Assembly (NCBI RefSeq): GCF_963675165.1
Contig: NC_087393.1
Coordinates: forward strand, 3,725,502-3,789,501
Direction: 5' to 3'
From: Halichondria panicea
Lineage: Eukaryota > Porifera > Demospongiae > Suberitida > Halichondriidae
Length of the DNA: 64,000 nt
Positions 4,515 through 62,138 of this stretch are shown piece after piece. Numbering within the stretch: position 1 is the stretch's first letter; each line of letters begins with the position of its first letter. Made by a program: the position numbers and the translations under genes. The notes under the pieces are model-generated. The model did no database searches. It worked only from the letters and a program-made list of their open reading frames with translations, and was not told the origin of the DNA.

Positions 4515-7500
4515 CTATTCATTATTGTTCACAGTTTCTTTTGTCTCGTTCACAAGGATATACAAGGTTTCCTCTTCGTAGTCTAACTCTGCCTGCCCCT
4601 CCTCCCCCACGTCCACACCTGTACGACAAGAAGTGACAGTATTAACAGGAGCTGATCCTGGTATTAGGGTGTTTCTTTAGACGTGAAATACGTGAAGAGT
4701 GTATATAGAACTAAGAGAGCATATATAGCTATAAGGTATTCAAAAGGTGTGTAATAATGTGACTCTTGTATAACACACCATCTTCTATCAGCATCTTCTT
4801 TGTCTTTCTCGCCTCCTGCTCCGCCTTACGGCGGTATTCCTTGTACTGTGACATCATCTTCTTTCTCTTCTCAAGAAGTTCCTAGAGGGGAGAGAACAGC
4901 AAGTTAATACACACAGTTTACCCTGACCACAAGTTCAATAGCTCAGACTAGCTACCAAGGACCATTCTACACTGCTCACACTTGAGGCCACTTCTATAGA
5001 AACACTAGTGTACATAAGTTGTTGCTACATCAGCCGGTTCCACTGTACTGTCATGCATAGCTCCAATGTTTAGTAATTGTAAAGATCAGAAATAAAATTT
5101 GAGTGTTCACATTAATGAGTAATGAGTGTCACACTAAGCTTTAGGCCACGTACTGGTGTTCTCTAATAGGGTCATAAATGAACACACACCTTGGATGCTT
5201 TGCTCTTGGAGGTCCTGTCTCTCTGTTCGAACATGTGAGAGTACTTCTTCTGGTCTTTCTTGATCAGCTACATGCATGGAGTTAAAAGTTAGCAATGGAT
5301 AGGAAAAAACCTTTCAAGAGGTGAACTGAACACAATTAGTTAAAGCAAATACAAAAGGAAGTGTATAAATTATAATAACATCAGTTTTGTTGCTACAAGT
5401 AAAGTCACACTTGACACTAAAAGCGAGGCAAACATAAATTTTGCGGAGCTCCTAATTAACTATGTAGTAGATATCAGCAGTACGTACTTTGAGGTGCTCC
5501 TCGGCGAGCAATGTGGGGGGTCTTGGTCGCCACTGGTGTTGACAGAACTTGTCTAAGCTAGGGGGGCTGCGATAGAGTGACCGTCCTTGGAACGACCACA
5601 TGCAGAATCCAGTGTCCATCTATAGTGTATTAATATCAACACACACATCCTTACAGGCTCTGCTATACAGCAACAACGAAAGCCACACTGTAATAACAGA
5701 AGACGTCTAAATGCCAATAGGGCATATAGACATTGCGTGTGTGCGTGCAATTCACCTTCTGCTTCCAGACGCTGACAGAGGTGACAACGTATCTGCCTGA
5801 GGGGTCCCACTCCAGATCAGAGGCCTGCTGGTGCTGGGAAGAGTTCATCAAGGTCATTGACCCCGTGTCCCAGAACTCTAGGTGACCACTCTCAGGGCTA
5901 AGGGAGAAACAGGTGCAGTGAAACTCGCATACAACTGGGCAGACTAACAGTGGGTGTACTAAAGAAGTGGCCTGCTAAACGTAAATTGAAATACAATATG
6001 CTAGAGAGAATTTGGAGATTACAATTATAAGGATGGGTGACCACAATCGACAGCTAGCTTTCACTTTATGCTATCTAAAATGATTTTATGTACACGCAGG
6101 ATAACAACGAGAGATTGAAGGCATTGATGCTATACAAGACTGTAGTGAAGCGCTTGTCACACTTGGTTCACTGAATTAAGTACATGTACCACAACGTATA
6201 CAGGTAATTACACAATCGAACTACAAGATTATAAACGACACAAGTGAATCAAACTGTAGTATATACAATTTGGAGTGGTACCCCAGGATATAGGATACCC
6301 AAAGATGTTAGTCACAACCATTATAGACATGTAGTTAGATAGTTGATAGGCTCATTAACTCTGTAGCTGCCCGCCCACTTACCCCTTTAGGTTGGCCAAC
6401 ACCACGAACTGTCCACTAGGAGACCAGAATATGTTGTTGACAGCTGTGTTCTCCAAAATCTCGAGGGTCTCTATAGCAACAAATATGACTGTTACACTTG
6501 GTGTTAATTTTAAACCAATTTCAAAGATTATGGTTTCCTGAGTTTTACCTCTCTCTAAGACTACACATTCATTGGTATAATGTGCCAATTAACATAACAT
6601 AACAAACACACCCAATTAACATAACAAACACAGTCACGGGGGGGGGGGGGGGCCTTACTGATTTGGGTGGGCTTTCCCCCCTTGTTGATCTGATAGAAGG
6701 TGGTGTGTATTCGTAAGGGGGGCTCCCCATGGATGACTGCCAGCTTTGACCCCTGAGGCTCCAGAGCAAACGCCACAACCGGTTCTGGGGAATACAAGAT
6801 ATCCGATAATTATGTAATGCAAAGCAACAGCTGCATATGTAATTATAGTATGAACGATTTGCATGAGGAGAACAGCTGGGTTTATTGTTACCGGTTATTA
6901 AAGATTAAGTCAGATAGCGTGTATAGGTGGTTCTATTTCTATTTTTAAACCCAAATAAGAGTTACGGCAATAAAAAAAGAGCGATCAGGGCAAATATTGA
7001 TCAACTTGTCATTCTCAAAGCTTCAGAAGTGATGGAATAGTTTTTTATGGCCTCGTTTCTGCTGACTGAGATGGAGGAATCGTGTTAAACTACTACCATA
7101 AAGGGATTCCTTGGGTTTTCACAATGTGACAGGGGCCAGGACATAAACAGGATCAAAATAGGGCAACTCATGCACTTGTCGACTGCGACAAACAGGATGC
7201 ACATCTAACCACGAATCCCAACACAGAAAACTACACAATTTTGCACACTAGCTCATGCAATCATAGATAGAGTAGAAGAGGAATTGGAAACGGAAGTACC
7301 CTCGAAGTACCATCCATGTATCTCCGCGGTTTTAATCGAGGCTTACTTTTTAACATGAGGGCTAAACATGAATAATTCATGAGAATTGTTTTGCTCTCTG
7401 TAAGAAGTCCACGAGCAGTTCTGCTGCTAAGCATCAACTTTCTCTAATACTTGAAGCCATTTGGGACACAGGACACTATTTAGTTACAAAGCCTTAGCTG

Positions 7501-14600: not shown

Positions 14601-16154
14601 AGATTATATACAGTACCTACACCTGAATACATGCATGTATACCAATCCCTGGCCATTTGGAACAAACTAAACAGGTAACTTCAATGTACAAATGCACGTT
14701 TTTATGCGTTTTTCAGTCACGACTGTTACGCTTTAGTGCATATATACATACTTGTACCAGATGAAGCACACAATAAACTGAAATTTATTTTCACTCACAA
14801 ATTCCTTAAACTCCGTTTTCTTCGGAGGCTCAAACTTTTTGGGAAGATTCTTGTACTTATCGAAATCGCTAAAAAAGTAGACGGTAAAGATGTGAGACTT
14901 GTCCAACTTGTAGCCGTTGCCCGTCTTCACAGCGTTCACTGCCTCCTCTGGCTTCTTGAACTCAAGGAAAAAGTACCTGCAATGAAATACAACGTCAACA
15001 GTGCAAGTTGTGGCAGGAACCAACACGGACACACAAAGTACAATTAATGTAGGACACATGTAGGAAGGACACATGTATTCGCCAACTCAGAAAGTTAATA
15101 CATACCTATATCGCAGAGAAATAATGTTTTCAAGTACAGCTGCAAACTGAAAATACGCAAGGCATCCTGGTACATGTACAATCAGGGCAACACATCTTTG
15201 ACCCAATTAACATGCACACAAATTAACTTTTACTACAATGGAAATCTGGAGTCTTATCCCTAACACCTGCACACACACACCTGCACACGCACACACACAC
15301 ACACACACACACAGCGAAGCATCCAGCAGCTGCATTGTCAAAGCATTACACTCACCCCTTAAACATGTTTTTCTCGTCGACGGGGTAGTGCTGATAAACG
15401 ATGGTGCCAAATCGTCCAAAAACTTTGTTGAGAACGGTCTTGAGTCTCTCGATTCGCTCGGGACCTACCTTGGGAGCGTTGTCCACTACAATCACGCTTT
15501 CAAAACCCGTCTCAATCATTGGCTTGTCCTTCAGCAGGTCTCCTAGCAACTCTGCAGGGACAGTAGATTAATTGGCTGAGACCAAACAAAGGTTCTATGG
15601 TAGAACTAGACTCACAAGCCGTCACTGTTGCACGGTGAACAGTAGACTGGTCAAACTCCGTGTAGAGACTTGTGCAACATTTGCCACTATATTTGTGGCA
15701 ACTCAAGTGGCTAGACTGCATGATCATTGATAGTGACGTAGCACTAGAAAACTCTAGGTATCACATGCAGACGATGCAGTATACTGACGTCATGAAAACC
15801 GCAGTCACTTAGAGATATGCTGACTGTGCAACACAAGTCTCTACACGGAGTTTGACCTGTCTACTGTTCGCCGTGCAATAGTGACAGCTTGATAGTCTAC
15901 GGTAGAACCGCTGATCTCTACTTTTAGACTGGTACTAGCACCTTACTACAAGTTACGACCTCATCTTTAGTACGTCACACTGCAAACACCATAATTTTAC
16001 CTTCATCAGTGATGTCGTCAACAAAACCTTCCGGATCATCAAACTCTGAGTCCGATTCATCAAATTCAGAGTCTGTACCATCTTCCTCACTACTTGATCC
16101 TTCCTCCTCTAAGCTGTCCTCCTTTTCAGGCTTTTCTTCCTCATGATCTGACAT
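4515..16154 (-). CDS. EIF3B: Eukaryotic translation initiation factor 3 subunit B
   Basis: This is the scaffold subunit of eIF3, which brings the 40S ribosome and initiator complex to mRNA. The start is ATG at 16152-16154, followed by a Glu/Ser/Asp-rich N-terminus ([19 protein letters not shown]). Next come an RRM ([20 protein letters not shown] to [14 protein letters not shown], about 14.9-15.5 kb) and the WD-type propeller: [114 protein letters not shown] and [19 protein letters not shown] charged C-terminal helix and the acidic end [17 protein letters not shown] complete it. The C-terminus aligns well with human eIF3b. More than a dozen exons are present, with exact ones at 11428-11566, 11036-11110 and 10826-10899. 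The next exon ends at 6784, leaving a 4,041-bp intron that holds another gene in antisense. Its start codon is only 178 bp from that of the divergent I-BAR gene. Confidence 0.95.
7262..7795. mobile_element. Non-autonomous inverted-repeat element in an eIF3b intron
   Basis: The ends are inverted repeats of more than 30 bp, starting CATAGATAGAGTAGAAGAG and ending in its near-complement CTCTTCTACTCTATCTATG. The 7-bp ATGCAAT flanks it on both sides (7255-7261 and 7796-7802). The matching place in duplicate copy 1 (near 145-165) has a single uninterrupted ATGCAAT and no element. This is direct evidence of insertion with a target duplication. No transposase ORF is inside. A longer relative lies at 38235-39376 and an inverted fragment at 11816-12021. 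Confidence 0.85.
7984..9871 (+). CDS. Sponge-type single-pass receptor-like protein, copy 2, nested in eIF3b
   Basis: The exons are 7984-8041, 8425-8557, 8759-9186 and 9519-9871, about 323 residues, all in phase. The order is the same as in copy 1: signal peptide, extracellular domain ([28 protein letters not shown]), Pro-rich stalk, transmembrane helix ([20 protein letters not shown]) and a tyrosine-repeat tail ([16 protein letters not shown]). The stalk is shorter than in copy 1 (WTPEPSNSDPSTPPPDEPAT becomes [12 protein letters not shown]), and several surface residues differ, for example ILGYYLN to IRGYYIN. The whole gene lies inside the eIF3b intron 6785-10825 on the opposite strand. Both copies keep open frames and splice sites, so both may be expressed. 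Function is unknown. Confidence 0.8.
8101..8300. mobile_element. 200-bp MITE with TACCGTATAG ends in receptor copy 2 intron 1
   Basis: It begins TACCGTATAGTGCGAAATTT and ends with the near-complement AAATTTCGCGCTATACGGTA. It is absent from the equivalent intron of receptor copy 1, where the sequence simply reads GTTATAATATCTTGAA around position 470. The boundary is consistent with a TA target duplication, as in Tc1/mariner-type elements. Related ends occur at 13445-13577, 27869, 41667 and 53005-53175. An inverted, truncated relative of the interior lies near 12817-12945. Confidence 0.85.
11816..12021. mobile_element. Fragment of the CATAGATAGAG-type element, inverted
   Basis: This roughly 205-bp stretch is the reverse complement of 7318-7545 with many differences (GAGCGCTTTTTCATGCTTGTG, AACAATTCTCATGAATTATT, AAAACCGCGGAGAT). 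It is missing from the corresponding point in duplicate copy 1 (about 4118-4130). It therefore arrived in copy 2 after the duplication or was lost from copy 1. No terminal repeats remain. Confidence 0.65.
12628..13345. repeat. Dispersed repeat in an eIF3b intron
   Basis: It shares long blocks with 26047-26660 in a PICK1 intron: GTCTACTCACCCGGATGCCATAGC-type start, GGGTCACTAAAGTAGAAAGC, AAGACTCCAGGCTTC and GACAGCTCAGT. At 12817-12945 a diverged, inverted piece of the 8101-8300 MITE is nested inside; it is not present in the PICK1 copy. No intact ORF was seen. The family is unknown to me. Confidence 0.65.
13445..13577. mobile_element. Short MITE with TACCGTATAG ends
   Basis: It starts TACCGTATAGCGGGTAATTT and ends AAATTACCCGCTATACAGT, an imperfect inverted pair, about 133 bp in all. 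The interior AACGCATGCAATGAA is shared with the element at 53005-53175. It sits in an intron of eIF3b. Confidence 0.75.
15271..15314. repeat. CA simple repeat in an eIF3b intron
   Basis: A (CA)n tract with a few interruptions lies between two coding exons of eIF3b. No other feature was seen in it. Confidence 0.85.
15591..15909. mobile_element. MITE-like element with long inverted repeats in eIF3b intron 1
   Basis: The left arm (GGTTCTATGGTAGAACTAGA, GCACGGTGAACAGTAGAC, CTCCGTGTAGAGACTTGTG) returns as its reverse complement on the right (CACAAGTCTCTACACGGAG, GTCTACTGTTCGCCGTGC, CTACGGTAGAACC). The arms are about 80 bp and the spacer about 150 bp. The interior codes for nothing evident. A flanking target duplication was not clear. 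Confidence 0.7.
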
Positions 16155-37563: not shown

Positions 37564-40500
37564 CTACTCCAGAAGCCTGAGTACTTTACCAATAGCAATC
37601 GTCTTGCCTGCAACAATACAAAACCATACATAGTAAACTGTGTCAACAGCTGAGTCATCACACGTCCAAGAAATTGTTACATTAGACAATGGTGTTGTAC
37701 CAACATGGTACCACGTTGACATGGTGCTACTACATTAGGCTCTGGTGAACTATATAAGTACATAATGTATGATTCAATCATTTTAAGGGACTAAACTGCA
37801 AGATTCAACAACACCGGCCCAGTACAGTAATAAGGAAGGAAGATACATGTGCATGTAAAAATTTCATTGTTCAAGGGCTGAAAAACTTCATGCCAGCTTA
37901 GTCTACAAGTATTACAGCTACCACACTATATACATACCTTCATCTCGTAAGGTAAATCTTGCCATTTGAGGAAATTCTTTGAATGTTTCCAGACAAATAA
38001 CTCCAGCTGTCTCCAATACTGCCAGGACAACCTGGTCTTGTTTCACAAATCTTGGCCTTTGGGATGCTTTTTTCCCTGTCTTTCTGTCAATTAGAGCCTT
38101 AAGTTGCTACAATGAGAGAAATCAGTATAAACATTCTTGTTGTAAACTGTAGGTACAACAAAATTAATAGCAAAGTACGTGCATAATAGGTACAGAGATT
38201 GAGCACAGTAACTGATAAATATCACCCATTAAATCATAGATAGAGTAGTAACAGGGATTGGAAACGAGATCACGTGCGACAATGACTCCAACGTTGCCTC
38301 TTGAAACCATCCGCGTTTCGGTTCAGAGTGCAATAGGCAGTGGGCGTTAACCTGTAGCAACTAAAACCATGCTAAAACTCCTCTTCTCCAGCTTCTAAAG
38401 TTGGGCTGGGCACAACCCAGCCTATAAACCTCTTGTGGTCATCATTTGGAACCACATTAGTTGTGAATTTGTTCAAGTTTGAGTTTCAAGACGATCCTAC
38501 AACACTTTGGTGAGTTTTTATATGCTTTTTCTCCCTAGAACCAGAGTTTAAATAATCTTTAACCTAGAAAAAGTATAATAGTGTTTCCATTAGTGAGCCA
38601 CAATGGTGTTGATTGAAAAACATGTGTTGCTGATTTCAAGTATCAACTATGCTAATTGATTTATGCGTTTATTTGTACCTCTATGCAGAGGTAAAGAGGT
38701 TCTAATTTCACAATTTTTAGTTATAGGCCAAGCATAGGAATAGGTTCATCGTAATGTCTTATTTCTATGCATTCTTGTGAGAAGTTACACCTTGCTCAAT
38801 TCAGTAGGTAAACGTTGAACATGTCGACCGTTTGTGTATGCAGATATGCCTTGAAGACCCAAATTCCAACATCACCAGGCAAATGCAAGAAAGAAACAAC
38901 TTCAGAAAGATTATGGGATGCCTATATAAGTCATAAAGAACACGAGTAGACAAAGAAAAATTTGTTCGTAGTTTTTGTAAATTTTCCATATAAGCTTCAA
39001 TTCAGTTTATAATGTCATAAATATCACAATAATAATGGCCAACAGACAGTTGATATTTCCAAATGGCCAACAGGCATAATAATATATAATTCTGCCTTTA
39101 TAGAGCCTATAGTGTCTCCAAAGGAGGGTTTTGCTCAATCTGGCTGATGCTACAAGCTCTCCCCTACAGCAGGTATACAGGAACGATCGCATTTGCTGCT
39201 CATCAGTCCTGTCTTCTGTCTTCTTGCTACTCATAGCCAGCCACCCTCGGTATAGCCTCGATTCAAGCCTGGTAGCCTGGTTTCAAGGCTTGATCATATA
39301 CATGACGTCAACCGAAACACGGATGGTTTCATCCTGTTCTATTGCGTTTCCAATCCCTCTTCCTCCTCTATCTATGATTAAATAGGCCTTTTTACTCAAC
39401 TAACCACCCACCCACACTTACAATGAGATGAACCTCCTCTACCACTGAGTGTATGTGCATTATAGCACTGTAGCCGGCGCAGATGATGGACTTGTGCTCC
39501 AGGACTGCAATCTGGGCCTCAAACTTGTTGCCAACATGACACGGGGAGGAGGGGTCACACAGGACGAAACCGGGAGAGATGTCCTAGTGGTAGTACAAGA
39601 ACAAACGTTGTGCATGAAAAGCCGTGATCGTCTAGAGGTTAGGACATTACGTTGTAGCCGTAATAACCCAGGTCACGTCTTTTTTTTACAACAACAAAGC
39701 TACAAGAATATTCAGCAGAACAGATCTTAGACAAGAAGTGATGTGTATACTCACCTCTTCCTCGATTCCTTTTAACCGCAGTTTAATGTTGTCCCCAGAG
39801 TAAGCAGTTGGTACCTCCTCCTCTACTCTTAACACACTTAGCACTTCCACAGACACCTGTACACCAGCATACACTCATAACACAATTCACCACAATGGAC
39901 AAGTGTATACACAATAGCACAACACAAACAAAGCTGAAAATTACATACACACTGTGATGCACACTCCACTTACTCTATTTGGCATGAGCAGTAGGATAGA
40001 CCCCTTGGCCACGCCCCCCGACTCCACCTTCCCCATCACCACTGTGCCCATGTCCTGTACAGGTAGAGCATTGGGTTATGAGCACTGTAATCACATGAGC
40101 ATGCTCAATACACAAAATACACATGCACTTATAAGCCAACCAAATATACAAGTACATTTTTGATCCCCAGTCTATACATCTGTATACCGATAAGGCTTTT
40201 TGTGCATGCAATCTCTACACCACATTATCCGACATTGATACTTAATTCCTACCTTGTACTTGTCTGCTATGGGCATTCTAAACGGTCCCGTATCTTCCCT
40301 TGAGATAAGCGGCAGGTCGTTAAGGTAAGTGATGAACGGAGGACCGCTGCATACAAAGAATGACAAAATGTTAAGTAGAAAAAACAATTGGTACACAGTA
40401 TCCCTGAAGAGAACCGTTTCTATTTCAGTGTTACCAGCTCACCTGTACCAAGGGCATGTCTCATCAGAGATGGGGTCCTTGAGATTTGCACCGGTTAAAC

Positions 40501-43500
40501 CCGACACAGGAAGGTAGTAGATATCTGGTGCAGAGAAAATTAAGGACATTTATGTACTGTACTGTGCATTGGCAATACACACCCTAACACTAACAATTTT
40601 CTGAGATCGACTCACCAGTTTTTGGGAAGCCAACCTTCTTGAGGAAAGGCGTCAGTTTGTTCTTACACTCTTCATACCTGGAATGGAAGGTTATTAATGT
40701 ACAAGCTAGTCTGAGGGCCAGACCTAATAGCTCGGGGACAAATCAAGTAGAGCTAGGATTAGGTCTGGAGACTCTTGCAGCATTTCCGTGTGCTCTAGCG
40801 GAATGTGGACAGAGCCAATGAAATGCATATCCTATGTCATGTGATTTTTAACCCAATGAAATACAAATAATTATTGCATCTGTGGAATTTGGATACAGGT
40901 AATGAAATGAGAGTATTGCTACATCTACTCCTTCTTTATAACCTCCAATATCACAGTCTCCGCCCTATTGACAATCCAAGAGCACATGGAAGTGCTGCAA
41001 GAGTCTCCAGACCTTTTCTCTTCCCCCTCCCCCCTCTGAGAAAAGGTCTGGCCCTCAAACTATGTTACAAGCTAGCACAAGTCATTATTATGAGTACAAG
41101 GAACACATCAACATGTATAAGAGAGGAGAACTTAAGTATGGTCTACAGTACTTTGCTTTTGTATATGTAACACTTACTTCACACTGGCATAACACATAGA
41201 ACACTCATTATAATAATGGATGACATGCCACACCCACCTTTCCTCTGACCACTCGACTGTGGGGTCGTCCATCTTGTTAATGAGTACCACGAGATGTTTC
41301 ACACCAGCTGTCTTCGCTAACATGGCATGCTCTCTACAGAAATAGAGGGCATTGCATTAAATAAGCCAAACAGCAGAAAAATGTAATGTTTCAATCCCTA
41401 AAGAGACTGGAATTGACAGATAATTCAGTATAGATGCACCCACATGAATGTACAATGTACACGAGATTTGTACTAGCTACATGCACTGTTCCAGTAGTTT
41501 ACAGCCTGTTTGCAGGGAGGGTGCCACAAGCAGGTGAAAAGCTACCGAAAAGTTTCTCTGCCCCTCTTCCAAAACTCAGAGTCACAACCACACGCAATAA
41601 TAGTACATGAATGTGATCGACAGTGAGCATAACATGAGGGGACACACCCACAATAATTATTATCAATACCGTATAGCGGGGAATTTTCAGGAAGGGGGGT
41701 CAAACATTTGTAGTTGTAATTTTAGAGTATATATTTTGTGGTTGCTTGCACTGCAGGTAAAGGTGGTCAATGATTGCTTCATTCGTGGGTAAAATACTTG
41801 AGCTCAGAGATTCAACAACGCAACTTTGTTTGTGATTCATTGAATGTTGCGAATAAATCTAAACCTACACCATAGATACTGTACACTCCGGAGTGTACAG
41901 TATCTATGCCTACACAGACTAAAATAACTTGCTTCAACAACATAGTGACAATTTAACAACAGTGACTTTAATTGCAGCTCCCAAGCTCCAAACAATATTT
42001 ACACATTATCTCCAACCGTACCTGGTTTGACCCTTCCTTTCGAACCCTGTCTCAAACTCTCCCTTTCTTGCTGATATCACAAGTACCCCGATGTCAGCCT
42101 GGGCTGCTCCACTGATCATGTTTGGCACAAAGCCGGCGTGACCCGGAGCATCTAAGATAGTGAATCGCTTCTGTTCTGTTTCAAAAGACGCTCGGCCAAC
42201 CTCAACAGTCTTGCCCTGCACAGTGTGAGAGAGTGATAATCACCTAAAATTATGTCATTACACAATGATGCATGAATACTACACAGAAGTGGAAAACGTA
42301 TCACTCACAATTGGGGAATGCGAGTATAATTACTTGAACGATAGAGATTTACTGTATGCAAAGGCACGTTGTTTTTGTCCAAAACACTGACACCGCGCAA
42401 TTAATAGTCACAATGAACTCTTTGAACCCACTAGCTAATGTAACAGTATATTATATGTAGATGCACTGTTCCAGTAGTTTACAGCCTGTTTGTAGGGAGG
42501 GTGCCACAAGCAGGTGAAAAGCTACCAGTAAGTTTCTCTGCCCCTCTTCCAAAACTCAGAGTCACAACCACACGCAATAGTACATGAATGTGATCGACAG
42601 TGAGCATAACATGAGGGGACACCACAATCATGCTAAGCCTTGATTTATGATTCTGTATTTGCAATAAGATACAGCTACAGGGATTTTCAGAGTTCTTGCA
42701 TTTGCAATGTCTAGAGCAGAACTGTCCGCCCTGATATTTTTGCGACATTTTCAAGTGATCTACATTGAATTTGTTGCTGATCACGTGCAAGTCATGCAAT
42801 AAGACAGGTATTTTCGCTCAGAAGCAAGAACTCAGAAATTTGATACTAACCACCTCTAATTAAAATAACCACAACTTAGGTCTAGTTTTTACCACACGAA
42901 ATACGGCAATTCAGGATTGCACCACTCTGATGCTACCACAGCTACCCACCGGGCCCTATGTTGGCACCACAAGGCCTATCCACCCACGGATGCACCTCGC
43001 ACCTTGTCCCTTTCCTCTTGGTTGGTATCGAGGGCCCAGGAGAGGTACCAAGTCTCTCTGTTTTTCTCTTTGGCTTCTCGCTCGTACTTTTCCAAAGTCC
43101 TCTTGTCCACTTGTCCAGTCAGGTACCTGGATAATAAAAGCAGTGCTCACAAGGCGAACTAACCAGTACACGTACTGCATGCGTACGTTCCAGTTAAGAG
43201 AGGCACCCCAAAAATCAATAAGTTCAGAATGACCTTTTTTTGTGTGACACAGCTTTAGAGGTTAGAGGTAATTACATGAATTCTCACGTACATTAGATGA
43301 CCTCCAATGGTAGACTTGCCAGCATCAACGTGACCAATGAAGATTATGTTCACATTCTCTTTCTCATCTACAGCCCTGGGTGCCACTTGCATGGACAAAG
43401 ACTTTGCAGAGTCCACTTTAACCCCTTTGGGCTTGCTACCGTTCGTTGCTTTCGGTCTTACTTCCTCAATCGATTCATCTTTTGCTGCCTCCGATGTTCT

Positions 43501-44504
43501 TTTTTTGTCCGAGTCAGAGGTGACCTCTCCTACTGAAGTAGCTACTGCTGTGGTTTTTGGTGATTCAGATGGCGAGTCATCTTCAGCTATATCCTCCCAT
43601 GAGTCGACCGGTTTGGGTTCAGGCGGAGAAATGGTGGGTGTGGTCTGAACAATAGTGGGTTTCGTCACAGTGTGTCGAGGGGGTTCATTAAATGGTTTCT
43701 GAGGTGACTGATCAGATACACCTGCACTAGATGCTGGGGTAAGGAAACAGACCGTAATGTCATACAGGTGTATAAGGAACAATGTATGTCTACACAACAC
43801 ATGTAAAGGAACTGTTCACTTCGTTCAGCAACACATCTAGAAGACTTTATTGTGATCTCTACCAAGATACCCTTACCTGGGAACGGCTCTTGGTTAGGGT
43901 GTGAGTGTTGGGGTCCCTGCTGACTGCTTCCATGCATGGCAGCTTGATGCTGCATCATGTATCCACCTCCTGGATAGACCGGACAAAGGTCAAATCATGT
44001 ATTCAATTGCACAACACCACTGCAATACATACAAACTAATTGACACTTTAGGAAAGAATGAAAGTTTGACCCTGTGCATTCTAATACTTGGCAAGCTTGG
44101 CCTTGAGGAAATTAACGACGTTAGACAATTAACCTACAATGCAAACCTACGTGGAGGTATCATGTTAGGTTGCATGTACATTCCAGGGGGGCCTCCATAC
44201 ATTTGTGGGTGATGACCTAAGGAAAATAGAGATCATACAATTACTCAATTGAACACTGAATGTGTACGTATGAAACGTGAAAACTTTACATTTACATACT
44301 GAATTGTGAGAACGTACCACCATGTACAGGGTATCCACCGGCGTACTGAGGAGAGTAGCCAGGGGGCATGCCATGGCCGCCGGGAACGAATGTTGGAGCC
44401 TGGACATTGGGTACGAAGGAGTTGGCGTTAATGTTCATCCTTCCAAACTGTGCATTATAGTCGAATGGCATTCTGCCCGGTCCTCCAGCCTGATCATTGG
44501 ACAT
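37564..44504 (-). CDS. GSPT1: Eukaryotic peptide chain release factor GTP-binding subunit eRF3
   Basis: eRF3 is the GTPase partner of eRF1 in translation termination. ATG is at 44502-44504 and stop TAG at 37564-37566 ([14 protein letters not shown]). The N-terminus is Gly/Pro/Gln/Tyr-rich and holds two overlapping poly(A)-binding-protein motifs: [10 protein letters not shown] and [10 protein letters not shown]. An acidic Ser/Lys linker follows ([14 protein letters not shown]). The EF-Tu-like GTPase has G1 GHVDAGKST, the switch-2 motif DAPGH in [20 protein letters not shown] and the NKMD motif ([20 protein letters not shown]). Beta-barrel domains follow: [79 protein letters not shown]. It has about 15 exons. 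Introns hold a 1.14-kb inverted-repeat element, a tRNA-His relic and a pair of direct repeats. Vertebrates have GSPT1 and GSPT2; the sponge gene predates that split. Confidence 0.95.
38235..39376. mobile_element. 1.14-kb inverted-repeat element in an eRF3 intron
   Basis: It starts CATAGATAGAGTAGTAACAG and ends CTCTATCTATG, inverted. The inner parts of the ends also match in inverted orientation (GGGATTGGAAACG against CGTTTCCAATCCC; AACCATCCGCGTTTCGGTT against AACCGAAACACGGATGGTT). The 7-bp ATTAAAT flanks both sides (38228-38234 and 39377-39383). It is the same family as 7262-7795. No transposase ORF was recognised in the interior. Confidence 0.8.
39621..39678 (+). pseudogene. Truncated tRNA-His relic in an eRF3 intron
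   Basis: The acceptor 5' strand GCCGTGA, the D-arm TCGTCTAGAGGTTAGGAC and a perfect anticodon stem TTACG/CGTAA follow the tRNA-His pattern. The loop TTGTAGC gives GTA where His needs GTG. The T-arm is almost wholly missing: CCCAGG runs straight into TCACG of the acceptor 3' strand. A run of eight T follows, like a Pol III terminator. A functional tRNA is ruled out by the missing T-arm. Confidence 0.7.
41481..41647. repeat. Direct repeat A around an eRF3 exon
   Basis: About 165 bp (ATGCACTGTTCCAGTAGTTT to ATAACATGAGGGGACAC) is repeated in the same orientation at 42461-42626 with few differences. The eRF3 exon encoding the DAPGH motif (42.0-42.2 kb) lies between the two. Confidence 0.85.
41667..41860. 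mobile_element. Partial TACCGTATAG-type MITE
   Basis: It starts TACCGTATAGCGGGGAATTT, the left end of the family seen at 13445 and 53005. The interior resembles that of the 27869 element (TGCACTGCAGGTAAAGGT). A right end with the matching inverted repeat was not found. Confidence 0.6.
41871..41908. repeat. Perfect 38-bp palindrome
   Basis: CATAGATACTGTACACTC, then CG, then the exact reverse complement GAGTGTACAGTATCTATG. It lies in an eRF3 intron beside a partial MITE and may be the remnant of two abutting element ends. Confidence 0.9.
42461..42626. repeat. Direct repeat B around an eRF3 exon
   Basis: Second copy of 41481-41647, same orientation. The copies differ by single bases and small indels, for example CTACCGAAAAG against CTACCAGTAAG. 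Confidence 0.85.
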
Positions 44505-45109
44505 GGTGACTTCGAGGGACAGGAAACAGTTCACTTGGGTAGATCTATACCAAGCTTCTTGATGTATTGATGTCTATGTTAACAACTGTCCTGAGTCAGT
44601 AGATCAAAGGCAGATCAGCTAGCTAACTTCAATTAAAAGCTAGAGACGCTTCAGGAGATTGCTAGACGTACCTGCGCCATAGCAAAAGAGACGGCCACAT
44701 GTTTCGCTCGCAGTCACGTGGCTTGGTTTTGCGTCGGCGATCCTTGACATTCTTGACATCATCTTACGTAACAGATTATCTGCCAATTTAATATCGAGAG
44801 TTAAATTTAAAGCAGAGAAAACAACTCTGCAGTTTTAGCTTGAGTAAGAGACAGTGTGTGACTTCCCTCTCATCGGCCCTGAGTTTTTAGAAGTAGGTAA
44901 TCGGCAACTCCTAGATCAGAACAGACATAGATATAGAGTCTTAGAGATAGATCTAGCTATGTGCATCATTTAGAAAACTCATTGTTTATTTTGATAGACA
45001 GTCCTTTAGTGAAGGTATACTGTATGTAAGTCTGACTGATTGTAGTGCCTAGCTCTGTATGTTATAAAGTTTGAAGAAACTCTATTTATTTCTCAGGTAA
45101 GAAACCAAA
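44505..45109. promoter_or_regulatory. Shared promoter region, eRF3 / HAPSTR1
   Basis: 605 bp separate the divergent start codons. It includes both 5' UTRs. Just before the HAPSTR1 ATG, TTTCTCAG/GTAAG could act as a splice acceptor for a non-coding first exon. No clear core promoter motif was identified. Confidence 0.5.
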
Positions 45110-46454
45110 ATGGCCGAAGGTCGTGGTGATCCCCCGGCCATTTTCACCCCTCAAGAGGAGGAATACATTCGCGAATATGAGGAAAATGGGGACATTGATC
45201 AACAGCTCCTGAGGGACAAAGACGTTGCCTCTCAGAAACTATGGATGTCCTTCCAAGACTCAGCCACTGCTGTGGCTCATCTTTTCAGAGGTAATTCTTT
45301 CACTTTGTTTAACAGATTTTTGAATAGGCACTGACAGTGTACAAATAATTATTTATGTATGTTGTGGAGCATCGTTATTTATAATACACACACACGCACT
45401 CAGTAGCGAAGTGCTGAATGGTATAGTGTATTAACAGATAGTTGTGCGCCTTATGTTCATTTTGTGTGATCACCGTCAGCTTGTTATTTATGTGTGTGAT
45501 GGTCATGCCCAATTACGTGACACGTGTTCATTATCCACAAGATCTCTTCGATGGTGCCCAATCTTATTTGATCACTTATTGGCATTCCTGTCCATGCAGA
45601 TTGTCAGTACCAAGCTGGAGTAAAAGCTTGGGTGCCTTTCCATGAGAGTGCTAGTGCTGTAACTCATCTATATAAAGGTACAGACTATAATAGAAGCTTA
45701 AAACGGTCTACTCTAAAAAGTTGGTTACCCTCTATGATTCAATTTATACAAGTTGTAGCAAGTCACCTCTGTGCTACAGCCACTGTTGGTCTACCCAAAA
45801 AGTGTGTCGTCTATAAACAGGTTTAACCAAGAGTTCATAAGTTTCACTGTAACATTTTTGTAGGTGTTTCCTTTTTATGTGTATTTCAGCTTCTGTAAGC
45901 TATAATTATTTTGTATGTGCACTAGCTCCTTATCTGCTCTTAGCCTCTGTGGTTTGGCGGTGCTTTGTAGTTAGACTTGTATTGTAGTTGTTGCTCGTGT
46001 ATTATTCTGACGTACAAGCTGTACTCCCTCTTTAGACTCCGTGGATGTGTGTCGGCAATGCTGTGATTCAGGAATAAAGTATGGACAACGAAAAAGAACT
46101 AAAGAAATTGTATCGTGGGTTAAAAGAAAACGCAAACATATCAAGAGAGAAGAACTGCTAGCCTTTCTCCTGGATAAGCCGTATTCAGAGTCCTCTAAAC
46201 ACGAAGATTTTGAGCCATCTGTTGGGCACCAATTAAGTGGGTTGTCACTGGGTCACATGTGTCCATCTGGAATAAACCATTACCAATCCCCGTCGTATCC
46301 GTCCCCGAGTGTGTCTCCAAGGAGAAGACTGTGCAGAGAAGACAGTGACGGAGAGACTGTGGTCAATTCTAGCGGACGGAAACGATCAGCAAACAGCAGT
46401 AGTCTCGATGTGGAGTCTGGGTTTAGCCCAATTGCTAAACGTATAAGACTGTGA
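45110..46454 (+). CDS. HAPSTR1: HAPSTR1 (C16orf72) stress-response protein
   Basis: Three exons, 45110-45290, 45600-45677 and 46036-46454, in phase, 225 residues. The hallmark is two repeated helical motifs, KLWMSFQDSATAVAHLFR and AWVPFHESASAVTHLYK. They are followed by SVDVCRQCCDSGIKYGQRKR, then TKEIVSWVKRKRKHIKREEL and LLAFLLDKP. Human C16orf72 has the same series of motifs. The C-terminus is Ser/Pro-rich with basic clusters (KRSANSSS, IAKRIRL) that could be a nuclear localisation signal. In mammals the protein works with the ubiquitin ligase HUWE1 in stress signalling; a shared role in the sponge is inference. Exons 1 and 2 each end with one copy of the motif, which suggests old exon duplication. 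Confidence 0.92.
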
Positions 46455-46864
46455 TTGTGTTATTTATTGTTACTATAGCTATTATGGCATCACATGAATT
46501 TTGTTGTTCAGTCATTTACCCTCGATCATGATATAGATCTGCTGATTCAAAAATACTACCCCGGTATGATCAGTTTTTGAAGTATGGCCCCGCGATATAA
46601 AATTATGGTGTTAATTTCTGTTGAAGTCATAAAAGCTGTGTGGTCTAGGGGCGTGACCAACTATGGTTTTCAGTAAACAAAAATAATGGGTGGGGCTCGT
46701 TTGCACTTTTTGAGGTTTTGCCAGAATCTCTAAAACAGCAGCTCTAACCTTCTGCTATTTCTGTAAGAGCTCACAGCAAAGATATCTAAGACAGTTAGGT
46801 GTATGTAGAGAGTGTAGGTTAGATACACAGCAGGTGATCAAGCTATACTACAAAAGTGGTTCCA
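46455..46864. other. Gap between HAPSTR1 and the ankyrin-SAM gene
   Basis: 410 bp without a gene. The genes are in tandem, so this holds the HAPSTR1 3' UTR and the next promoter. Nothing else was recognised. Confidence 0.5.
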
Positions 46865-48216
46865 ATGTCAGACACGCCCACATTGTTTGCTCCTCATCAA
46901 GCTGCGAAAGAGGGTAACCATCCTCTTCTCAAGAAAGCCAGCAGGAAGGATGTTAATAGAGGGGATCAAGATGGATGGACGGCTATGCACTGGGCAGCCT
47001 GGAATGGGAATCCAGAATCACTCAAAATACTTATTTCGAAGGGGTAAGTCGACATGTACGTAGCTCATCTCTTTTAACAGTGCAGTAGACTACTACACTA
47101 GCTATTAAACAAGATGCCATGATAGCTAGATCTACTGCATAATTATGTACTATTATTGGGACTAGCATTAAAAATACAAACATACCATGTTACTAGCTAG
47201 AGCTGACACACATGTTGAATATCTAGTACACTATAAAATCCACCTACAGAGGAGAGGTTGACAATCCTGATAACAAAGGAAGTACTCCACTTCACATTGC
47301 AGCAACATATGGCCATGAACAAGCACTGGAACTGTTAATCGGCAAGAATGCAAATCTGTTTGCACTGGATAATAATGGCAGGACAGCTGCCAAAGTGGCT
47401 GCTTCCCACCAAAAAGTTGATTGCTGTCGATTCCTCGATACTCTGGGTGTCCGATGGGAAGTACAAAACCATGAGCTTGTAACAAAGCTTAAAAAGAAGG
47501 CAATGAAGGATCTTCAAAAACGAACAAAGAAGGTTGGTGAGTCAAGTGGCACACGAACACCAGCTTCATACGACTATTCAACTGCTCCTTCTGGTCTCTC
47601 TGGAAGCCCTCGAAAGGCTGCAAGACCTCCGCGTCCATCTTCCGGTGGCCCTACCGGAGGAAAGGGTGCCAAACTATCTCTGCAAGACGCGCTTCGTCAA
47701 AACTTTGAGCTTCGTACAACAGACTCCACGGAGAACATAGGCGATGGTGGACTAGGAGCAAGTAATAGTGCAACCGAGCTAAATTATCCAGGCTCAGGCA
47801 GCAGTACATTTCGAACAGTACGTCGACCAAACCAAGGGCCTCTCATTAATGCTCTCTCTGGACTACCACTTAAAATTGAAGCTGACGATGCAAAAAATGT
47901 ACCCGGGGCTATAGTGGCAGGTTCAAACTCAAATGGACACCGATTACCAAGTATGCAATTAATTGGATCCCAAGCTACTTCCTTCAAAAACGACTCCCCA
48001 CTCTCAACCTTCCTGCATTCATTGGACCTCGTTGATTACGTCGAGAACTTGCACAAAGAGAAGCTGGATCTAGAAGCACTTGCAATGTGCAGAGAGGAGG
48101 ATTTGACTAGCATTGGACTTCCTCTAGGCCCGCGAAAGAAGATTTTAAATGCTATTCTTAAAAGACGTCGAATTATCGCTAGTCCAAGCAAGAAAATGAC
48201 TGAGTCAGAATTCTAG
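46865..48216 (+). CDS. Ankyrin-SAM scaffold, USH1G (Sans) / ANKS4B-like
   Basis: Two exons, 46865-47043 and 47250-48216, in phase, 381 residues. The first ATG is at 46865 (MSDTPTLFAPHQAAKEGNHP). Three ankyrin repeats follow: WTAMHWAAWNGNPESLKILI, STPLHIAATYGHEQALELLI and GRTAAKVAASHQKVDCCRFL. Then come a basic helix (LVTKLKKKAMKDLQKRTKK), a long Ser/Gly-rich linker and a SAM domain (LSTFLHSLDLVDYVENLHKE, KLDLEALAMCREEDLTSIGL, PLGPRKKILNAILKRRR). The C-terminus ESEF is a possible PDZ ligand, comparable with the DTEL-type ends of the vertebrate proteins. Those proteins scaffold harmonin/myosin-VII complexes in stereocilia and microvilli. In a sponge, choanocyte microvilli would be an obvious place to look, but that is inference. 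USH1G and ANKS4B are vertebrate paralogues, so no single symbol is given. Confidence 0.88.
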
Positions 48217-48544
48217 ACATGCATCACTTAAAATAATAGAGAAAAAGGAACTCATCTGTTTTGTAACCTATAGTTAATTCTACTTGCTATTAAATTATAT
48301 TATGTGTATACTGTACTAGCTACATGTTTAATGTCTTTTTTTAATACTGAGATTTAGTTATGTGTGGACAACATGGTTTTACAATTAATGCACAGAGTGA
48401 AATAAGTGACCAAAAGTTGAGCATTGTCTTGATACGACACAGCAGAGTTATGATGGCACACATGTGTATACTACATGTATTATACAAAAAGTAAGAGCCA
48501 AACTTAATACCTGAAAGATGTAATTGGCATGACATGTATTAAAG
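48217..48544. other. Gap between convergent ankyrin-SAM and USP7 genes
   Basis: AT-rich 3' UTR sequence of both genes. No other feature was seen. Confidence 0.5.
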
Positions 48545-59821
<11,277 letters not shown>

Positions 59822-60290
59822 CGTCTTCCTCCAGTCTTGCTTGTGTTCTCTCTTTTGCTTGCCTGCTTCCAGTGGAAATACTTTAATTGACTTCTTAGCT
59901 AGCTTGAGACGAGACAGTAACCCGTGGCTATTTGTCTTTCCCCGAGAGCTCTTTGAGGGAGCTAAGTTTCCTGTGACTTTAGAGCCGAAAGAAATCGTAG
60001 TCACAGGATCTTTGCTGATCTTTACACCGATTTTGCTTTACTAGTACTCGAAGCAAAAAAAAAAAACAAGATTTATCTTGGCGCTTGGTCTTGAACATGT
60101 GCCACTAGCAGTATGGTAGTAATCGTCAAAATAATAAATCCTAAATGAACAGTAACATGTACACTTAGCCTCGAATTCAGACCGATTAAAAATTAATCAG
60201 CCTGGATTCGGCCTGGATTCGAGGCTAATGTACACTGTGCATGTATGCCAGTAATATAAAGTTTTTGCCTGCCACTGTTGTGCATAGTAC
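59822..60290. promoter_or_regulatory. Shared promoter region, USP7 / METTL22
   Basis: 469 bp separate the divergent start codons. The minus-strand frame stays open upstream of the USP7 ATG as far as about 60004, and further to an in-frame stop near 60045, but has no other ATG. It is probably 5' UTR. A short inverted pair (TAGCCTCGAATTCAG / CTGGATTCGAGGCTA) lies at 60169-60228. Confidence 0.5.
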
Positions 60291-62138
60291 ATGGCATCCT
60301 CAGTAGGTGATACTTTCCTTTCCGACGTACACGTTGGAACGTTTGGATCATTATCAAATCAAGTTAGTCATTAATTTATGTATATTCGACTCGTACTATA
60401 AATAATTTCTCTCTATATACAGGGCACCCTTATTACACGATTTATTTTCCATCTGCAAAATAATTCTTCATTAGACTTCTTTTCTGACGATCAACCTACT
60501 GAAGACGTGGATGGAGACATTGAAGTCGCTAGAAGATCATCTCTGTTTGAGAACGGAGTACTGAGCATTGGTAAACAGCTCTGTGGCAACTCATTGCTTT
60601 GGGGGCCCAGCATAGAACATTGTTTTGAGAAAGAAACCCCTTGGTGCAGTTTAAACGTTACAGCAACTTGGTTAGGACTTAATTGAAACACCTATCTGAG
60701 TACTGGCTTTCTAATTGGCACAGGCTAATGGTTGATTCTCGCTTGTTGTAGTGGGAAGCCTGTATAGATAACCTACTCCAATCTCTTGTAAGTATATCTA
60801 CCATGAGCCCTCAGCTTTAATGGTACGTCTTCACAACTCACACATGTACATACGTTATGCAAGGTGAGATGATTTCCATCCTCATACCCCCCTCCCGTGC
60901 ACAGAGCATGCCATGTCAACCACACTTCCCAATGTGGGACTGCAAGTGTGGAGAGGAGCACTACTAATGAGTGATTACCTACTGGCTCACTCGGAAAGTG
61001 TAGAAGGAGCCATTGTGCTGGAGCTGGGGGCTGGCACTGGGCTGGTTAGTCTAGTTGCAGCCATAGCCGCCGCACAGGTGTTCTGTACAGGTCAGTAATA
61101 ATTGTCACAAGTATATCTTATACATTTCTTCTTACATTAACTGATGACTGTACTGTGTCTGTACTTTTCTGCATTTTGATGCAGACACTGGTAAAGAAGT
61201 GATGGAAGTATGCCAGCGAAATGTTATTAGGAATTCTAATGAAGTAACTGGAAATGTGTTGGTGAGGGAAATCAATTGGACACAGCCATTTGTCAGTTCC
61301 TTATCTGGTATGTCGCTTTCAAGACTGTCATGTTGTTGTGGACGTTTACTTCGTGAGAAATTGATTAGCTATAGGCGATTATCGCCTAATTAATATTGCA
61401 TCATGTGTTACACACAACATATACAGATTGCACAATTCCTGAAAATGACTTGAGACAACTTTCTATGGCTGATTACATTATCGCCTAATTTGCATCATGT
61501 GTTACACACAACACAACATATAATTACTCAGTGTGCAAAACATTCTATATGCTGGGAATACAGATAGCACAATTCCTGGGTGGACAGAAAATGACTTGAG
61601 ACAACTTTCTATGGCTGATTACATTGTTGCCACTGATGGTACATACATACATGTACATGAAGATTATTACATACATGTATCTATCTGGCTGCATGTATAT
61701 AATATTATACTCTACCTATACACACACATACATCTGTTGGCAGTGATATACAGCGACAAATTGACCGATGCTTTCCTGTCTTGCTTGGCCCAACTTCATT
61801 TTAAACTGAACAAAACTCCTACTATATTGCTCGCATTTGAAAGAAGGTATATATGGCCCTTGCATATATAATTACAGCGTAGGAAATTTAGATCATAGGC
61901 ACCGTGCAGGCGTAACTGCAATTATTATGTCACATGTGTTTGTAATGAATACACCCTATGTAGAATAAACTTCACAATAGAGGACTTAGCACCTGTGGCT
62001 CCAGCATACAATCATTTTATGAGTTGCTTGGAAACCATGTACTCGACTGGCAATAATGGAGTGGCTGTATCGTTCAAAGCAGAGCAACTCTCAACAGAAT
62101 TTGAGCAATATTTCGAATACAAACGTGTTAAAGAATTG
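60291..62138 (+). CDS. METTL22: METTL22-type protein-lysine methyltransferase
   Basis: Seven exons are in phase: 60291-60362, 60423-60570, 60905-61090, 61185-61307, 61564-61638, 61744-61846 and 61964-62138 (294 codons). The start is MASSVGDTFLSDVHVGTFGS. The seven-strand methyltransferase core shows the pre-core MSTTLPNVGLQVWRGALLMS and the SAM-binding loop VLELGAGTGLVSLVAAIAAA, then CTDTGKEVMEVCQRNV and the post-II motif MADYIVATDVIYSDKLTDA. Next come FERRINFTIEDLAPVAPAYN and FEQYFEYKRVKEL. This order matches human METTL22 closely. The final short exon was not located: after KEL there is a GT donor, while reading through would add about ten residues to a TAG. A broken duplicate of exon 5 lies at 61437-61490. 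Confidence 0.88.
61383..61490 (+). repeat. Partial tandem duplicate of METTL22 exon 5
   Basis: The sequence CATCATGTGTTACACACAAC plus an exon-like block (CTIPENDLRQLSMADYII) precedes the real exon 5 at 61564-61638 (STIPGWTENDLRQLSMADYI). The duplicate has an acceptor-like ATACAG. It lacks nine bases (the codons for G-W-T), and it lacks the donor: the frame ends in TAA. It is probably not spliced in. Confidence 0.75.

Follow-up and report, generated by a model that had tools for sequence, protein, structure and literature searches.

Five neighbouring genes of the sponge Halichondria panicea have human counterparts on 16p, for the most part probably through a shared ancestral chromosome, and the closeness of USP7, HAPSTR1 and METTL22 is a lead for comparison with other animals. 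The evidence comes from the genes located at the locus, from the places of other 16p13 families in the same genome and from simulations of local gene order. Papers are cited by PMC number.

Gene content and order of the locus

The window, the whole stretch of 64,000 nucleotides analysed, covers positions 3725502-3789501 of contig C17 (of 5739701; 4.4% of the genome) in a genome of 131 Mb and 39 contigs. Exons and peptide pieces located in the window placed five genes in the order eRF3 (-), HAPSTR1 (+), an ankyrin-SAM gene (+), USP7 (-) and METTL22 (+), as the first-pass annotation of this DNA had given them, with gaps of 605, 410, 328 and 469 bp separating the coding regions. Its further statement that nothing else lies between them agrees with our finding no further gene recognisable among the five, but is weakened by introns that are only partly annotated. 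The features are as follows (window numbering).

37564-44504, - strand: eRF3 gene (GSPT1-type release factor GTPase), start codon at 44504, GTP_EFTU domain
44505-45109, no strand: 605 bp spacer from the eRF3 start codon to that of HAPSTR1, the two genes being divergent
45110-46454, + strand: HAPSTR1 (C16orf72/TAPR1) gene, exons 45110-45290, 45600-45677 and 46036-46454
46865-48216, + strand: ankyrin-SAM gene, exons 46865-47043 and 47250-48216, Ank and SAM domains (Pfam)
48545-59821, - strand: USP7 gene, start codon at 59821, final coding residue ending at 48548
59822-60290, no strand: 469 bp spacer from the USP7 start codon to that of METTL22, the two genes being divergent
60291-62138, + strand: METTL22 gene, 7 peptide pieces

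The Pfam scan was run first on ten single open frames and then on joined pieces. Three of the ten frames (59229-59537 -, 52776-52964 - and 61524-61868 +) gave no Pfam family and one (43258-43815 -) scored just under the cut-off; the domains were recovered once the peptide pieces had been joined. USP7 was assembled from 32 collinear pieces on the - strand, from 59821 down to 48548, with USP7 as its top solved-structure match (8.2e-236) and with MATH, UCH, USP7_ICP0_bdg and USP7_C2 domains on the concatenated pieces, while a structure search with the single open frame 50713-51171 (-) gave no match. A search of the genome with the USP7_C2 family also gave no match, though on the joined pieces this domain reaches 1.1e-24; the difference marks a blind spot of exon-by-exon searching. 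Elsewhere in the genome, repeated similar ubiquitin-protease-like matches were seen at C3:6001207-6079190, apparently as a tandem array. The 13 collinear pieces of eRF3, also on the - strand, run from 44504 down to 37567 and have eRF3a as top solved-structure match (1.4e-190).

The three exons of HAPSTR1 are bounded by GT-AG, its Pfam TAPR1-like match is 1.8e-37, and the only two matches to this family genome-wide both lie inside exons of this gene. On an assumed alignment to the human numbering, five of six conserved HAPSTR1 residues look retained (45600-46100), with A93 reading as serine. The six (F90, A93, A94, L100, Y101 and G119) are those termed perfectly conserved in PMC9834230. It was also observed that exon 2 (45600-45677; 78 bp, with both ends in phase 1) is a repeat of the last part of exon 1 (45227-45290), with 21 residues aligned at a score of 59 that was equalled in 0 of 20000 shuffles. 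Two degenerate helices in tandem are said to make up the HUWE1-binding domain of HAPSTR1 (PMC10921065), and the repeat suggests that these helices arose by exon duplication.

The labels of the remaining two genes are putative and follow from resemblance. The ankyrin-SAM gene we take to be of USH1G/ANKS4B type; neither name appeared among the best 60 of its 317 solved-structure matches, which were general ankyrin chains, and the structure search gave this label neither support nor refutation. The joined pieces of the gene at 60291-62138 carry a lysine methyltransferase domain (Methyltransf_16, 2.5e-24; Pfam), and the gene is presumably METTL22. A donor-like GTGAGT directly follows position 62138, and METTL22 may therefore extend past the end that the first-pass annotation had assigned to it.

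Linkage with 16p13 along the contig

Nine hand-picked gene families of human 16p were searched for in the genome, their human places being assumed; 16p positions are taken as given for GSPT1, ANKS4B, CLEC16A, RRN3, TVP23A, NTAN1, ROGDI and COQ7. Six of the nine were located, and four of these six (CLEC16A, NUBP1, RRN3 and TVP23) have matches on C17, that is, on 4.4% of the genome (P 5e-5 by a simple binomial on families picked by hand). Leaving out NUBP1, of which C13 carries a second copy, three of five remained on C17 (P 8e-4). The NUBP1 copy on C17 has an N-terminal cysteine motif, which we take to be typical of NUBP1, and two more members of its family lie on C10 and C9. RRN3 is present on C17 in several copies; RRN3-like sequence was seen in at least four places over about 154 kb (C17:1906902-2060543), all on this contig. 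Two located families were off C17, PMM2 with a PMM match on C2 and ABAT with exon fragments on C1 that fall under the family cut-off. NTAN1, ROGDI and COQ7 (3/9 families) gave no match in the genome search, which does not imply their absence.

The 16p families of C17 span 3.4 Mb, with RRN3 at 1.9-2.1 Mb, the window at 3.73-3.79 Mb and NUBP1, TVP23 and CLEC16A at 4.29-5.29 Mb, and this scatter away from the window matches the expectation after shuffling. With four of the six located families on it, C17 would seem to have an ancestral linkage group in common with 16p13.2-p13.11. The linkage with human 16p13 that had been proposed for the window is accordingly upheld and reaches along C17, and the family test supports the view that C17 and human 16p13.2-p13.11 come largely from one ancestral chromosome. 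It is argued in PMC12728501 that random-shuffle tests can overstate the significance of linkage.

The idea of a 16p13 block extending beyond the five genes was considered and rejected. No 16p13 gene was recognised by eye in frames of at least 85-90 aa, either in the remainder of the window or in the 50 kb flanking it to left and right; small exons fell outside this reading and several frames stayed unnamed. The genes recognised by eye were EIF3B, PICK1, SLC15-like, IFT70-like, RRS1 and INTS15-like. Several further features were observed there by eye (window numbering throughout). EIF3B-like pieces occur as two similar copies at -1452 to -207 and 5666-6904, with more EIF3B-like sequence near 14.7 kb (14736-15086), and several frames with TRAF-like zinc-finger and RING-like sequence follow one another from about -49998 to -27553. 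Five single open frames, each 1232-1332 aa long, look like a secreted region with several membrane spans behind it; the last two frames lie in a ~9.3 kb tandem duplication that also carries an INTS15-like gene.

63200-67021: long single open frame
71898-75698: long single open frame
76569-80264: long single open frame
95711-99703: long single open frame, in the tandem duplication
104984-108979: long single open frame, in the tandem duplication

Closeness and orientation of the genes

In the human genome METTL22, USP7 and HAPSTR1 are presumably the only ones of the five that lie close together, GSPT1 being ~25 genes off and ANKS4B many megabases off; all human strands and the exact human gene order used here are likewise assumed. 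Human USP7 is reported to adjoin C16orf72/HAPSTR1 directly at 16p13.2 (PMC11148184), and a 326 kb human duplication to span USP7, PMM2, C16orf72 and CARHSP1 (PMC6779875). A 1.054 Mb chicken interval contains CARHSP1, PMM2, TMEM186, ABAT, METTL22, TMEM114, C16orf72, USP7, NUBP1, TEKT5, EMP2 and GRIN2A among its genes (PMC11050503).

In the window METTL22, USP7 and HAPSTR1 fit within four adjacent genes, with the ankyrin-SAM gene intervening. Simulations assumed a shared chromosome with random gene order and guessed numbers, namely 250-1500 genes on C17 and 8-20 shared genes. Four genes fell within five adjacent places in 5e-4 to 0.026 of trials with 250 genes on C17, in 1.7e-5 to 3.6e-3 with 500, in 0 to 4.8e-4 with 1000 and in 0 to 1.2e-4 with 1500; three genes fell within four adjacent places in 1.5 to 26%, 0.4 to 7%, 0.1 to 2% and 0.04 to 0.9% of trials, respectively. 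Macrosynteny alone would give 0.06-2.3 equally tight trios genome-wide (assuming 500 or 1000 genes a chromosome), and scanning windows would select exactly such trios. For a given same-chromosome pair, lying as close as USP7 and HAPSTR1, which have one gene between them, has a P of about 0.003-0.008 (500-1500 genes).

Gene order is collinear with human for METTL22, USP7, HAPSTR1 and GSPT1 (chance 1 in 12, the human order being partly assumed). When the ankyrin-SAM gene is skipped, all three adjacent pairs show the opposite head-to-tail relation to human, whose strands are assumed:

METTL22-USP7: divergent here, convergent in human (strands assumed)
USP7-HAPSTR1: convergent here, divergent in human (strands assumed)
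HAPSTR1-GSPT1 (eRF3): divergent here, convergent in human (strands assumed)

If the assumed human strands are correct, none of the pairs has retained its promoter arrangement, and the difference in 3/3 pairs makes a constraint by co-orientation or by a shared promoter unlikely.

Explanations for the cluster

We consider it moderately probable that the cluster is what slow local shuffling has left of an ancestral animal linkage group, with no need for selection on the neighbourhood. C17 and human 16p13.2-p13.11 would descend largely from one ancestral chromosome, and local rearrangements would shuffle its order at so low a rate that METTL22, USP7 and HAPSTR1 have stayed close together on both sides, eRF3 adjoining the trio here and lying further off in human; mild selection would be compatible with such a course, in which we infer slow neutral decay. 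This reading is favoured because four of the six located families are on C17 and scattered along it, because the orientations of adjacent pairs differ on the assumed human strands and because no nearby 16p13 genes were recognised among the frames read by eye; it is also backed by the linkage of the gene set in human (PMC6779875, PMC11148184) and chicken (PMC11050503). Weighing against it are the improbability under full shuffling of four genes in five places, the order collinear with human, and the absence from C17 of PMM2 and ABAT, both reported from the chicken interval, together with the 3/9 families without a match. A closely related reading, in which the ancestral chromosome was shared but fully shuffled and the genes met again in this lineage by chance, is in keeping with the expected number of equally tight trios and with the differing orientations; its likelihood is lowered by the fourth gene and by the collinear order, and we judge it distinctly improbable.

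The first-pass annotation went on from close linkage to functional or regulatory constraint, a step that the data do not demonstrate. It is possible, though unlikely, that selection keeps USP7 and HAPSTR1 linked as members of one dose-sensitive pathway, with METTL22 and eRF3 as passengers; the deubiquitinase USP7 would stabilise HAPSTR1, whose amount would set nuclear HUWE1 activity, and linkage would let the pair change copy number jointly or share one chromatin neighbourhood. The single gene between the two here (P about 0.003-0.008) speaks for this, but their orientation seems not to have been kept (convergent here, divergent in human on the assumed strands), neighbour pairs are so numerous that linkage of a few functional pairs is to be expected by chance, and co-essentiality of neighbouring genes can be inflated in CRISPR screens. 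On the functional side, human USP7 adjoins HAPSTR1, the two genes are co-amplified and their tagged products co-precipitate (PMC11148184); HAPSTR1 is made more stable by USP7, described as its second co-essential gene, after HUWE1 (PMC10921065); and USP7 and C16orf72 knockouts have a common expression profile, with C16orf72 a candidate USP7 substrate (PMC9225015). These mammalian ties make selection on the pair a reasonable hypothesis; the pathway link in the cited papers is nevertheless a mammalian one and the lineages compared are two. We hold it doubtful that USP7 and HAPSTR1 are an ancient pair, selectively maintained since the common ancestor with humans so that their doses travel together.

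Very improbable, to our mind, is a regulatory block in which the enhancers of one gene, located within the adjoining genes, keep the group from separating, given gaps of just 328-605 bp, adjacent pairs none of which keeps its orientation (human strands assumed) and five genes that we take from their roles to be housekeeping. In its favour, shared cis-regulation is a frequent explanation for microsynteny in animals (PMC5560861, PMC8851819).

Comparison with known systems

Linkage shared by sponges and other animals with shuffled order is known, and some local order is reported to have been kept (PMC7385117, PMC10232365). Between choanoflagellates and the sponge Ephydatia, conserved syntenic regions are in general lacking according to PMC7385117. 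Sea anemones are reported to have strong macrosynteny and poor microsynteny (PMC10719294), which as context tells against deep local order. As in the BCnS ALGs (PMC10232365) and in Ephydatia synteny (PMC7385117), where orthologues share a chromosome across the sponge-human distance regardless of order, four of six located families are found together on C17; PMM2 and ABAT, in contrast, lie off C17.

The literature searched, with supplementary tables outside its scope, gave no report of deep USP7-HAPSTR1 linkage, and the pair may already be listed in print. The main catalogue of ancient gene pairs is reportedly that of Irimia et al. 2012. Should the USP7-HAPSTR1 neighbourhood be conserved across phyla, it would lend evolutionary weight to a stress/p53 pathway so far mammalian and would bear on the copy-number gains spanning USP7 and HAPSTR1 in autism and cancer (PMC11148184). 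Should it not be, the case would show a shared ancestral chromosome yielding neighbourhoods that merely look constrained.

METTL22, USP7 and HAPSTR1, with one intervening gene, qualify as a microsyntenic block in this genome and would do so in human by the assumed order; GSPT1 and ANKS4B would lie outside it in human, with more than five genes intervening by their assumed positions. The definition is that of PMC8851819, which asks for three or more orthologues, lets no more than five genes intervene and needs no collinearity; a block of this kind is dated by its presence in further phyla. For a second species, the papers give the adjacency of USP7 and HAPSTR1 in human (PMC6779875, PMC11148184) and METTL22 in the 1.05 Mb chicken interval (PMC11050503), the exact human gene count being assumed. 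USP7 and HAPSTR1 are close in both genomes, directly adjacent in human (PMC11148184). In this genome the two genes are convergent with the ankyrin-SAM gene between them, unlike the human pair, whose assumed strands are divergent.
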